A stretch of 64,000 bases of DNA, taken from an uncultured bacterium. Its GTDB lineage: Bacteria; Armatimonadota; UBA5829. Position numbers and translations under genes: made by a program. Under the pieces are notes generated by a model, which was not told the origin of the DNA, did not search any database, and saw only the letters and a program-made list of their open reading frames with translations. Positions 23,631 to 31,613 of the stretch are shown here, piece by piece (the first letter of the stretch is position 1; each line of letters starts with the position of its first letter). The DNA lies in the NCBI GenBank assembly GCA_938074205.1, contig CALJES010000003.1, forward strand, positions 124,001 to 188,000. The letters are read 5' to 3'.

Positions 23631-23706
23631 TGGCGCACCCGGCGCGATTCGAACGCGCGGCCTTCTGCTCCGGAGGCAGACGCTCTATCCCCTGAGCTAC
23701 GGGTGC
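23631..23706 (-). tRNA. tRNA-Arg (anticodon CCG)
   Basis: A 76-base cloverleaf on the minus strand with encoded CCA (plus-strand TGG at 23631-23633). The acceptor stem is GCACCCG/CGGGTGC with discriminator G; D arm GCTC/GAGC; anticodon stem TCTGC/GCAGA with loop CTCCGGA, so anticodon CCG reads the CGG Arg codon; T arm GCGCG/CGCGC with TTCGAAT loop. A near-consensus promoter lies just upstream at 23717-23744. No integrase or duplicated 3' end suggests use as an attachment site. Confidence 0.97.
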
Positions 23707-26502: not shown

Positions 26503-27348
26503 CTAGCTTCTTTGACTGTCAGTCCTGTTTCCGTCACCACGCAGGCGACGATCCCTGCCCGGTCCTCTTCTTCCGAAGTTTGGGTTCTCTTCGCGCAGCT
26601 GGTGAAACACGGCGTGCATGTCCTCACGGTACTGATCGCGGAACTGCGGATCCAAACTGAACATAGCCCTCATTCGATCTGCTAGTAGCGCTCGTCGAAC
26701 CTCAGGTGCAAGGCTCATTTCTGCAGCTATTTCCGCCGCCAGTGCCCGCCGCCGCTCCTCCGGTGTCATTTTAGCTAACTGAAGTGCTCTTTCCTTCGCA
26801 TCCTTGCTGAGCGCCGAGACTGCCTCGGTGGCAGGGGCGGCACTTTGTTCTTGTGTAGGTTCAGAGGCGAGTACGACGTACACTGAAACCCAACTGTAGC
26901 CTTCAGGAAGCTTAACGGACGACGTGTCAGGAGCAGCGGGCAAGTCTTTAGCTAGCACAGCACAGGTTTTCGTTGCCGGATCTTCCACTGCAAGCCCAAC
27001 CAGCGGCAAAGATGCAATTGCAACCATTGCCGATTTAATCTGTTCGAGCTTTACGGGTTCATCCGAAGGCTTGGCAAATTGCAGTTTCTTCCACACTAGG
27101 TTCTTCAACTTAGCAATAGCGTCTAATACTTGGCTAAGTTCTGTGTCTTTCAGGCTGAGAGTTATAGAACCCTGCACCTTTGGGTCAAGGACGATGGGGA
27201 CACCTGTTTGCTTAGAAAGGTCTGATATGAAATCTTTGATAGACACGTCTTTGGCGTCAATCGTAACCTTCTGTTGTTCAGTAGCGGCTGCCACGGTAGC
27301 AATGAGAAATGTGCAAATTAAGCAGAAAAGTATTTTCGCGTTCTCCAT
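26503..27348 (-). CDS. Exported protein with N-terminal STN (secretin/TonB short) domain
   Basis: A 281-residue protein. ATG 27348 follows GGAGGAG. Residues 1-21 are a signal peptide (LFCLICTFLIATVAAA). Residues about 26-95 match the STN domain (VTIDAKDVSIKDFISDLSKQ, then LSLKDTELSQVLDAIAKL), normally the N-terminal plug-like part of secretins and TonB receptors. No secretin or barrel follows: the rest is a 90-residue spacer and a charged helical C-terminus (MTPEERRRALAAEIAAEM) ending in an Arg/Gly-rich tail. It has its own promoter at 27395-27423 although rpoN lies upstream. Possibly a periplasmic adaptor; the role is unknown. Confidence 0.85.
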   Translation of the reverse strand: MENAKILFCLICTFLIATVAAATEQQKVTIDAKDVSIKDFISDLSKQTGVPIVLDPKVQGSITLSLKDTELSQVLDAIAKLKNLVWKKLQFAKPSDEPVKLEQIKSAMVAIASLPLVGLAVEDPATKTCAVLAKDLPAAPDTSSVKLPEGYSWVSVYVVLASEPTQEQSAAPATEAVSALSKDAKERALQLAKMTPEERRRALAAEIAAEMSLAPEVRRALLADRMRAMFSLDPQFRDQYREDMHAVFHQLREENPNFGRRGPGRDRRLRGDGNRTDSQRS

Positions 27349-27474: not shown

Positions 27475-28887
27475 TTATAGTCGACGCTGTCGGGAAGAAA
27501 GGATTTTCTCGGCTTCTCGATACTTTACCACGGTGCGCCGCGCAATGTTAAAACCCCGCTTGCGAAGGATGTCGGCTATCTGCTGATCGCTTAGTGGGTT
27601 GGAAGGGTCCTCGGATTTTATCAGTTCTATGATCATATCCTTCACCGAGGTCGAACTGTCGAAGAAAAAGTCGAACGAAACGACCTCTTCGCTTGGTAGC
27701 TGGACATACTTACCTACCGTTGCGCGGCTGACTGTCGACTCGTGTATACCCAAATACTTTGCCAACTTAGTTCGGGTGAGAGGTCTTAGGAATGCTCTCG
27801 AACCTGTTTCTATGTAGCCCTGCTGGTATTCCACTATTGCTTTGGTGATTTGTCGCAGGGTCCTTCGCCTCTCGTTAATATACTTGATGAAGAGTTCGGC
27901 CCGTTCTACAAATTCTGTGACATGTTTTCTATCTTCTTTGCTGTATCCGTTTGCCCTTCCATTTTTCAACTCTTCATACATGGCGCGATACTTCGGGCTT
28001 ATTCTGAGGAAGTACTGTTCATAACCCACAACCTCTATCTCATAACCGGCTTCCGTCTTTCGAACTATCACATCCGGTTTGATTGTTCCGCTCTGCCGAG
28101 CTGAATCACTGGTAAAAGGAGATCGGAACGCATTACCAGGGTAGGGATTGAGCTGCTTTCTTATGAAATCGATAGCTTCGAGTACTTGCTGAACTGGGAC
28201 TTTGAGCCTCCGCGCGATGCGGCCGGTTCTTCCTGTTAGCATATCTTGCCAAAAGTGGTCTACTATGGCTGATGCCACGTGGTTGCCCCGGTCCTCTTCA
28301 GAAAGTCGAGCTAGTTGGATCCTCAGGCATTCCTGCAGGTTGCGAGCTCCTACTCCGGGCGGATCAAAGGTTTGTATAACCGAAAGTACGGCTTCTGCCT
28401 CTTCAACTGAGCTATCGCACTCGAGCGCAATCTCTTCAACGGAACACTCCAGATAACCTGATTCACCAATGTTCGCGATGATATACTCTCCAATCGGCCA
28501 TTTGTCTTCGGGTAACGATGCACGCATCATCGAGTTCAGGTGTTCTCGGAGGGTTACCTGTTCACCTATGTTTGAGATGAAATCGGTTTCCTCGTCCGAG
28601 TCATAAGCGAACTCTGCCGGCTGTTCCAGTTCATAGATCGATAGGTCCACGTCGTCTGCGCTGACAAGTTGTTTGCGGAAGGGACAATCTATACAGAGTG
28701 TCTTGGGCTGTTCACAGTTGTCGCAGAGGTCTTCCTCCGGCACTTCCAATGCCGGATTCTCAGCCAATTCTTGTTCAATTGCTTGCTGCAACTCCATTGA
28801 GGTTAGTTGCAATATGCTGTTAGCCATTATCAGCTTGGGGTCAATTTTCTGACTTAGCGTCTGCTTTAGACCTTGCTCGAGTTGCAC
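27475..28887 (-). CDS. rpoN: RNA polymerase sigma-54 factor
   Basis: A 470-residue alternative sigma factor that needs enhancer-binding AAA+ activators and recognises -24/-12 promoters. Region I is Gln/Leu-rich (residues 1-48, LTSMELQQAIEQELAENP). The core-binding domain follows (residues about 110-290), then the HTH (LAKYLGIHESTVSRATVGKY) and the RpoN box ARRTVVKYRE near residue 450, which differs from the usual ARRTVAKYRE at one position. Residues 55-68 carry C-x2-C-x6-C-x2-C in the usually acidic region II, a possible zinc-binding insert. GTG 28887 has AGGTGAGG upstream. No activator gene is nearby. Confidence 0.97.
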   Translation of the reverse strand: MQLEQGLKQTLSQKIDPKLIMANSILQLTSMELQQAIEQELAENPALEVPEEDLCDNCEQPKTLCIDCPFRKQLVSADDVDLSIYELEQPAEFAYDSDEETDFISNIGEQVTLREHLNSMMRASLPEDKWPIGEYIIANIGESGYLECSVEEIALECDSSVEEAEAVLSVIQTFDPPGVGARNLQECLRIQLARLSEEDRGNHVASAIVDHFWQDMLTGRTGRIARRLKVPVQQVLEAIDFIRKQLNPYPGNAFRSPFTSDSARQSGTIKPDVIVRKTEAGYEIEVVGYEQYFLRISPKYRAMYEELKNGRANGYSKEDRKHVTEFVERAELFIKYINERRRTLRQITKAIVEYQQGYIETGSRAFLRPLTRTKLAKYLGIHESTVSRATVGKYVQLPSEEVVSFDFFFDSSTSVKDMIIELIKSEDPSNPLSDQQIADILRKRGFNIARRTVVKYREAEKILSSRQRRL

Positions 28888-29088: not shown

Positions 29089-30492
29089 CTACGCTTTCTT
29101 GGTCGTGAAGTACTTGCGGCGTAAAAGCTCGGATGCCGTGTCTTTGTCTTCTGGTTTCAGTCGACCCTCGATTACTTCGCACTCCAAGAATGCCTTCAGT
29201 GCGCCGACCTCAGGACCAGGTCCTATTCCGAGTAAAGCCATAATCTCGTCACCGTTCAGAGGGCTTGCAAACTGCTTGCCCTGCATTTGTTCCTGGACCT
29301 TGGCGATGCGTTCCCTTAGCTCTCGGAGGTTAACAGTTACTGTATCCGGGTTTGCGGCGGCCTTGTCTGCCTCGGTCAATTTGATTGCTTCTTCCAAAAG
29401 ATCGCCAAGATCGCGTACCAGTCGACGGACAGCCGCGTCAGACCACTGATTGTGATATTCCCCAACTCGCAGATGCATTAATATGAGAAATGCAACATTG
29501 TTGATCAAAGAGTTGGGAAAACGCAGGCGCTGAAGAAGATTGCGAGCCATTTCAGCTCCCACAGTTTGGTGTCCGTAGAAGTGCACGTTGCCTTGTTCGT
29601 CCACCGTGCGAGTCTGCACTTTCCCGATGTCGTGGAGAAGGGCAGCAAGTCGCAGCAGAAGGCCATCTTTGGGAGGAATAGCTTCAACTGTTTTCAGCGT
29701 GTGGGTCCACACGTCGTGTACGTGATATACGTTCTGTGTTACACCGCGCGTCGCAGCAAGTTCTGGAGCGAACTGTTGAAGTAGACCGGATTCCAGCAGT
29801 GTTTCCAATCCCCATGCTGCGTTATTTGACATAAGTATTTTGACAAACTCATCCCGTACGCGTTCTGGACTTACAATTTCAAGGCGATGTGCCATCGACT
29901 GCATCGCGGCAAATGTCTCAGGGTGAATGGCAAATCTAAGCCTCGCTGCGAATCGGACTGCTCGCAGCATTCGCAACGGGTCTTCCTCGAAAGTTTTACG
30001 AGGATCGCGCGGCGTGCGAATTACGCGGTTTGCAATATCAGCAAAAGCCTTCCCAGTGAAGTCTATCACTTCCCCTGTGTGCAGATTCTCTAGTAAAGTA
30101 TTGATGGTAAAGTCTCTGCGCATAACGTCGTCAAGCAGGGTGCCTGGTTGGGTGTGGGGTTTTCGGCTTGTTGGTTCGTAGCGTTCTTTTCGGGCAGTCG
30201 CTAGTTCAACCTGCGTGTCGGCGATAGTGACCATAGCGGTTCCGAACCGAGGATACTTAACAGGTTTGTGACTGCATATGCCTTTGTCGAAGAGAAAATC
30301 AGCTAACCTGAGCGCGTTTCCCTCGACGACTATGTCCACGTCTTCGCCGTTTGGTTCCTGAAGTTCGGCGTGCTGGTTGTGCAAATTTCCTGCGAGGTAT
30401 TTGTCACGCACCACGCCGCCGACTAGGTATAATTTACCTTCGTAGGGCGTATTCCTGGTCGCTTCCCTAAGAATTTTCAGAGCGTGTTCCAT
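29089..30492 (-). CDS. cca: CCA tRNA nucleotidyltransferase with HD domain
   Basis: A 467-residue class II nucleotidyltransferase that builds or repairs the 3' CCA of tRNAs. LVGGVVRD (residues about 23-30) and GEDVDIVVEG supply the catalytic metal-binding acids. RRDFTINTL, the FEEDPLRMLRAVRFAARL segment (residues about 175-192) and the neck follow. An HD domain (LLRLAALLHDIGKVQTR) occupies the second half, as in the long CCA/poly(A) polymerase form; phosphohydrolase activity there is possible. Its ATG 30492 lies inside the end of the translin-like gene (26-base overlap), indicating coupled translation. Whether it makes full CCA or only part cannot be told. Confidence 0.95.
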   Translation of the reverse strand: MEHALKILREATRNTPYEGKLYLVGGVVRDKYLAGNLHNQHAELQEPNGEDVDIVVEGNALRLADFLFDKGICSHKPVKYPRFGTAMVTIADTQVELATARKERYEPTSRKPHTQPGTLLDDVMRRDFTINTLLENLHTGEVIDFTGKAFADIANRVIRTPRDPRKTFEEDPLRMLRAVRFAARLRFAIHPETFAAMQSMAHRLEIVSPERVRDEFVKILMSNNAAWGLETLLESGLLQQFAPELAATRGVTQNVYHVHDVWTHTLKTVEAIPPKDGLLLRLAALLHDIGKVQTRTVDEQGNVHFYGHQTVGAEMARNLLQRLRFPNSLINNVAFLILMHLRVGEYHNQWSDAAVRRLVRDLGDLLEEAIKLTEADKAAANPDTVTVNLRELRERIAKVQEQMQGKQFASPLNGDEIMALLGIGPGPEVGALKAFLECEVIEGRLKPEDKDTASELLRRKYFTTKKA

Positions 30493-31120
30493 TGCTAAGT
30501 TGCTCTATAGCGGAACGAATAGTGTTTTCTAGTTCCTGCTGCTGTTGAAGTAGTGTTATGTCTGCCCGAGTCCGCTCCAGAACAGCCCGCACCATATCCG
30601 TCTGCCTTCGCAGGCCTTGAGTCACTGCGTCGGGGTAATCGAAAGTAATCAGCGCGTAATACGCTTCGTCCATTATGTTCAAAATGCGCTCACTTCGATC
30701 GAGATTTCCATGCCGAAGCAAGTCAAGAACGCGGCGACGGCACTCGCCGATTGCCTCTGCTAAACCGTTAAGATATGCTGGGGGTTCGACGCCGAGTTCG
30801 TCATGCCGGGGCAACGACTGCTCACTGATGATTGCGTAGGTCAACTCGGCTTCTGCGTATTCCTTTTGCGCGTCTTGCACATACCCTGCGTAGTAGATTT
30901 CCGGGTGTGTCTTGAGCAGCTCTCGCATCTGATCGTTTCTGGTTCGGGCTTCTGCCATCAGTTGGCGAGCTGTGTCATACTCCTCACGATGACTAGCTCT
31001 AACGGAATTTGCTGAGAAACGAATCACTTCGCGCGCCAGGCGCAGCGCTTCTTCGCGAGCTTGGTTTGTGGCGTCGAGAAGAGTGCGAATCTGTTCTGCT
31101 ATTTCGGTTATGCTTGCCAA
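30467..31120 (-). CDS. Translin-family RNA-binding protein
   Basis: A 217-residue all-helical protein. TTG 31120 is chosen for its AGGAG site 10 bases upstream; the open frame extends to 31234 without homology. The pattern RASHREEYDTARQLMAEA, HPEIYYAGYVQDAQKEYAEA, LPRHDELGVEPPAYLNGLAEA, GECRRRVLDLLRHG, DYPDAVTQGLRRQTDMVRAV and ERTRADITL matches the prokaryotic translin family, sometimes mislabelled haloacid dehalogenase. Eukaryotic translin with TRAX forms the C3PO nuclease that degrades RNA, including tRNA leader fragments. The gene overlaps cca by 26 bases, supporting a tRNA-related job. Nuclease residues cannot be assigned. Confidence 0.88.
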   Translation of the reverse strand: MASITEIAEQIRTLLDATNQAREEALRLAREVIRFSANSVRASHREEYDTARQLMAEARTRNDQMRELLKTHPEIYYAGYVQDAQKEYAEAELTYAIISEQSLPRHDELGVEPPAYLNGLAEAIGECRRRVLDLLRHGNLDRSERILNIMDEAYYALITFDYPDAVTQGLRRQTDMVRAVLERTRADITLLQQQQELENTIRSAIEQLSNGTRSENS

Positions 31121-31193
31121 TGTGCCTATTCTCCTTTCAAAGCTGCATAGTGCCTTGAGACGGGTTAAATACCGTGCAGTTATTATCGCTGAG

Positions 31194-31271: not shown

Positions 31272-31613
31272 CTATCTTTTGGCCTCTTCTAAGCGGTTGA
31301 GAAGATCAGCCACCGTGTTAATCTTCTCCAGCTCAAAGTGAGCGTCAATGCACTCGTGAATATCGATTGCCTTCATTTTCTCAAACCGCTTCTTTTCCTC
31401 AGTTGAAAGCTCACAAGGTATATCATTGAGGATGCCTTCCTCCCACTCTTCTTGCTTGACAAACTGTTCGCCAAGCTTCTTACATCTGGAGCAACGGTAC
31501 TTGATGTAGACAAAACTGGGACCGACCAAGCGCAGGTAGTAACCGGTCTGAACTACATCCTTTGCATAGATGCGCTGGCCGCAGTTGCAGCGTATTATAG
31601 ACCTCGCGCTCAA
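31272..31613 (-). CDS. Small zinc-ribbon protein of unknown function
   Basis: A 113-residue protein starting at TTG 31613, with GGAGG 6 bases upstream. Two Cys pairs (RCNCGQRIYA near residue 9 and YRCSRCKKLG near 42) are spaced as in a zinc ribbon. The rest is charged and helical (WEEGILNDIPCELSTEEKK, then INTVADLLNRLEE). No enzyme motif is visible. It has a near-consensus promoter (31703-31731) and lies upstream of the translin and cca genes on the same strand, separated by a hairpin. A nucleic-acid-binding role is a guess from the ribbon. Confidence 0.85.
   Translation of the reverse strand: MSARSIIRCNCGQRIYAKDVVQTGYYLRLVGPSFVYIKYRCSRCKKLGEQFVKQEEWEEGILNDIPCELSTEEKKRFEKMKAIDIHECIDAHFELEKINTVADLLNRLEEAKR

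Follow-up and report, generated by a model that had tools for sequence, protein, structure and literature searches.

A TRAX-type translin-family gene next to the CCA-enzyme gene in one Armatimonadota clade and its possible link to tRNA repair or turnover

The window analyzed here, a stretch of 64,000 nucleotides from an uncultured Armatimonadota bacterium, carries on its minus strand a TRAX-type translin-family gene (30467..31120, 217 aa, TTG start) that overlaps the gene for the CCA-adding enzyme. One branch of Armatimonadota has retained the pair, and it arose a second time elsewhere, which hints at a shared tRNA-care job. A role in tRNA repair or turnover, in which a TRAX-type RNase and a CCA repair enzyme would act on the same tRNA pool, is our best guess (probability about 0.45), with a general RNase being nearly as likely.

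Family, fold and acidic site of the translin-family protein

The sequence-only reading had taken the open reading frame for a bacterial member of the translin family, and this was borne out by similarity searches and structure prediction. With the single sequence as the phmmer query against PDB sequences, AfTRAX (PDB 3zc1) was retrieved at E=4.2e-23 and NEQ131 at E=1.4e-11, and the NCBIfam model PRK14562 matched at E=9.6e-76, while a profile built on 66 bacterial copies reached AfTRAX at E=1.1e-39 and human TRAX at E=2.7e-5 (human and fly TRAX at about 3-5e-5). The AlphaFold2 model, computed from a 66-row alignment (pLDDT 96.9, pTM 0.89), is all-helical with no strands, which is the translin fold. 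The Foldseek comparison with translin, proposed earlier as a check, placed this predicted model closest to AfC3PO (rmsd 1.4-1.6 A; TM 0.80 for the query and 0.91 for the target), followed by NeC3PO and then by human C3PO and the translins of human and mouse. Judged from sequence and predicted structure, the protein is a true member of the translin/TRAX family and belongs to archaeal-type TRAX, the catalytic branch.

The Pfam Translin model (PF01997) scored the window protein at 18.2 bits against a cut-off of 25.9, which is a detection threshold and no biological feature. This model is insensitive to the bacterial branch, and since it finds just 20 of 66 diverse bacterial copies at E<0.001, it is too insensitive to serve as a membership test here. 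All 66 bacterial copies match NCBIfam models named "haloacid dehalogenase superfamily", and the PRK14562 name "haloacid dehalogenase superfamily protein" covers 30470-31120 as well as 65 homologues. Haloacid dehalogenase identity, with its Rossmann-like alpha/beta fold, was ruled out because the predicted model is all-helical without strands, so the product name is a misnomer. Residues 4-68 also gave a Pfam BMFP hit under the cut-off (E=1.2e-4), which a coiled coil probably produced by chance.

Residues E87, E90, E122 and E126 align with E83, E86, D117 and E121 of AfTRAX (PDB-chain numbering), and the acidic residues of NEQ131 align with the same four, so that all four catalytic acidic positions of TRAX are kept in the window protein. 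Over about 110 aligned bacterial copies, E87, E90 and E126 are invariant, as are R22, R30, H44, R128 and R129, while the position of E122 is 96% E and 4% D. A heteromeric C3PO, with translin and TRAX paralogues in one genome, was considered and rejected, as there was a single translin match in the host genome; bacterial genomes hold one copy each with few exceptions, as in archaea.

Among known systems, AfTRAX/AfC3PO of Archaeoglobus fulgidus (PDB 3zc0, 3zc1) shares the fold, the acidic cluster and a similar length with the window protein, at 31-33% identity over the structural alignment, but it has Asp at the third acid, whereas the bacterial protein has Glu and its gene is paired with cca in its clade. 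NEQ131/NeC3PO of Nanoarchaeum equitans (PDB 5jr9, 5jrc) is likewise a single-gene TRAX with aligned catalytic acids (23% identity, rmsd about 3 A). The fold and the TRAX active site of eukaryotic C3PO (translin plus TRAX) are also alike, although that complex needs two paralogues and the host genome has one copy.

The translin-cca junction and its distribution

The translin-family frame runs on the minus strand from a TTG at 31120 to a stop ending at 30467. This start agrees with the starting position of the homologues and with a ribosome-binding site read from the sequence, GAAAGGAG (31138..31131, minus strand), which sits 10 nt before the TTG. The cca gene (29089..30492, minus strand) encodes, by domain profiles, a class II CCA tRNA nucleotidyltransferase with an HD domain; the enzyme of 467 aa is full length, with the PolyA_pol head, RNA-binding and HD domains all present, and is the sole PF01743 protein in the host genome. 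Its ATG lies at 30492, so the overlap of 26 bases between the translin frame and the start of cca that had been claimed earlier is real: the 3′ end of the one gene and the 5′ end of the other share 30467..30492 on the minus strand in different frames. In families f1-f3, most genomes with the junction show an overlap of 26-44 nt; in the remaining junction genomes the spacing ranges from -1 to about +118 nt. The two genes of the junction clade are probably carried on a shared transcript. When a strong ribosome-binding site was looked for in the sequence before the cca ATG, none was seen, and translational coupling of the two genes is therefore no more than plausible.

A translin gene was found in 87 of the 101 Armatimonadota genomes sampled, and its position was compared with those of PF01743 matches genome by genome. 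A same-strand translin-cca pair was revealed in 17 genomes of four families (f1-f4), all within one Armatimonadota clade, and in a further genome the two genes are split by a contig end. The pair is absent from genus g5 of f1, from family f5 and from all other Armatimonadota families sampled. The earlier proposal to look for this neighbourhood beyond the present genome has thus been carried out, with 17 genomes in four families and one Chloroflexota genome as the outcome.

The Armatimonadota rows with the junction group together in the translin tree as a single clade (support 94), to which g5 and the contig-end case also belong. Explaining the cca junction across the complete tree takes at least three changes, in agreement with a gain in Armatimonadota, a loss in g5 and a further gain in Chloroflexota. 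In the CCA-enzyme tree, the junction-clade enzymes fall together with those from family f5, which is of the same class, while those of g5 are divergent and encoded away from translin. In g5, then, the ancestral cca neighbour has apparently been replaced and translin retained, as the two trees suggest, and the two genes are separable because g5 lost the ancestral cca yet kept translin. Across 15 junction loci, cca is the only neighbour cluster within about 5 kb that is common to all four families, whereas rpoN (sigma-54; 27475..28887, minus strand, downstream of cca), an STN gene and pepA are linked to the pair in f1 only. Since cca stays linked throughout f1-f4, pure synteny inertia is a less likely cause of the pairing.

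In Chloroflexota, where 111 of the 201 genomes sampled contain a translin gene, the pair was detected in one of the 111 translin-bearing genomes and in none of the rest. In this genome (G194; L158/L242), a complete CCA gene, in which every expected domain is present, starts 2 nt after translin. Its translin falls inside a chloroflexotal clade (support 95) and its CCA enzyme places among chloroflexotal ones in the CCA-enzyme tree; both genes are of chloroflexotal type, and the pair has an independent origin. With an assumed figure of about 4,000 genes per genome, roughly 0.03 such junctions would be expected by chance over 111 genomes, making the case suggestive of more than coincidence. A stand-alone AlaX gene, encoding a tRNA editing protein, lies directly upstream of translin at 11 Chloroflexota loci, some of them in the same genome. 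At L048, L055, L061, L063, L067 and L070, this arrangement is that of one chloroflexotal clade. The commonest neighbours of translin in Chloroflexota are UbiA (18 loci), H+-PPase (17) and thiamine synthesis genes (15), which have no obvious tie to tRNA. The tRNA theme among translin neighbours recurs without dominating.

Proposed role and rival explanations

All 33 host tRNA genes sampled encode their CCA end, so the CCA enzyme is expected to repair (or mark) ends rather than to complete primary transcripts. The sequence-only reading had suggested a tRNA-processing or quality module that is not generally described. This suggestion is partly supported. The two outcomes named beforehand as refuting it, a lack of structural match to translin and a cca adjacency seen in this genome alone, were both contradicted by the results; quality or turnover fits the CCA-encoding tRNA genes better than maturation does, and the link is confined to one clade. 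As for novelty, bacterial translins as such are already known: a 2012 paper by Gupta, Kale and Kumar (cited in PMC8762117) has members of the translin superfamily in eubacterial genomes as the subject of its title. A search of the accessible literature turned up no pairing of such a eubacterial member with cca and no other described translin-CCA link, and no assigned function was found for the TRAX-type RNases of Armatimonadota or Chloroflexota.

In the proposed mechanism, the TRAX of the window would be of the homomeric archaeal kind, an all-helical protein probably forming an oligomeric shell that would cut single-stranded RNA through a metal-binding acidic cluster (E87, E90, E122, E126). 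Probably placed on the same transcript as the CCA enzyme and plausibly co-translated with it, it would dispose of defective tRNA ends or of short tRNA fragments that are single-stranded, while the CCA enzyme would repair damaged 3′ ends and so restore tRNAs worth keeping. In archaea, TRAX forms an operon with SepRS and often with endonuclease V (PMC5424206, PMC8762117); this arrangement is alike in that a TRAX gene stands beside the gene of a tRNA enzyme, although the partner there is an aminoacyl-tRNA synthetase and not the CCA enzyme. Neurospora C3PO removes 5′ pre-tRNA fragments, as cited in PMC3834833 and PMC7586317. Hints of a tRNA role thus come from the clade-wide cca adjacency, the independent G194 pair, the AlaX loci and the archaeal SepRS operons; against it stand the rarity of the translin-cca pair outside the clade, the varied neighbours, the retention of translin by g5 without a cca neighbour, and the missing strong ribosome-binding site of cca. 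In a narrower form, which we consider rather unlikely, the two proteins would be a dedicated tRNA end-surveillance pair, with TRAX trimming or removing damaged tRNA pieces either ahead of CCA repair or in its place; the same type of link would then have evolved separately with cca (twice), with AlaX and with SepRS in bacteria and archaea.

Archaeal C3PO cuts generic single-stranded RNA in vitro, and the window protein might almost as well be a general endoribonuclease that clears short single-stranded fragments of any origin, with the proximity to cca being an old operon kept for expression and owing nothing to a common substrate. This is a credible alternative, if somewhat short of even odds, as translin is widespread in two phyla among mostly unrelated neighbours and persists in g5 apart from cca. 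Less easily accommodated are the restriction of common neighbours within about 5 kb of families f1-f4 to cca, the independent rise of a second translin-cca junction, and the recurrence around tRNA of the AlaX and archaeal SepRS links. It would be distinctly improbable, by comparison, that the protein is a non-catalytic nucleic-acid-binding translin, acting for instance as an RNA chaperone or in the regulation of cca translation. Non-catalytic translins lose the catalytic acidic residues, but the four positions stay acidic in nearly every bacterial copy and the closest structures are archaeal C3PO proteins that have this site. The Glu that replaces Asp at the third catalytic acid in 96% of bacterial copies would agree with a non-catalytic protein, as would the binding of nucleic acid by eukaryotic translin without TRAX catalysis (PMC3834833).

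Most of the Armatimonadota genomes sampled and roughly half of those from Chloroflexota carry TRAX-type genes, hidden under "haloacid dehalogenase superfamily" names, and the conserved pairing with a CCA repair enzyme offers a concrete and testable guess at their substrate. Should tRNA repair or turnover prove to be the role, the pre-tRNA fragment function of eukaryotic C3PO would be tied to an older tRNA role in prokaryotes.

Other genes around the pair

The zinc-ribbon gene upstream of translin (31272..31613, minus strand), which had been put forward as a possible member of the module, is a real gene, but its homologues, found in 46 of 61 genomes of the phylum, lie mostly elsewhere in the genome. 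It was rejected as a module member, since the window genome and one congener are the only ones in which it adjoins translin, and it is probably not part of the translin-cca module. An anti-phage defence role was also considered and dropped: PADLOC gave no match for translin or the zinc ribbon, and its matches of the CCA enzyme were weak and to the HD domain. Further along the window, a tRNA-Arg gene of the host (G000) was located at 23631-23706, and the STN gene at 26503-27348 encodes a protein of 281 aa with STN/GspD N0 domains and no secretin domain; in relatives within the family, this gene is linked to rpoN.

The place of the zinc-ribbon gene in the window's genus is held in genera g2-g5 of f1 by a small conserved ORF, directly upstream of translin with or without cca downstream (for example L036:9573-9938 and L078:4855-5037). 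The small ORF, with a conserved core of about 62 aa, is predicted by eye to be helical and had no Pfam match above cut-off. Genus g6 (G007, L250:979-1823) lacks translin; there, the small ORF shares an ATGA overlap with an ORF of 218 aa that is followed by pepA. In this 218-aa ORF the CCA domains are limited to the head and a part of the RNA-binding domain, and the ORF is the sole PF01743 match in that genome.
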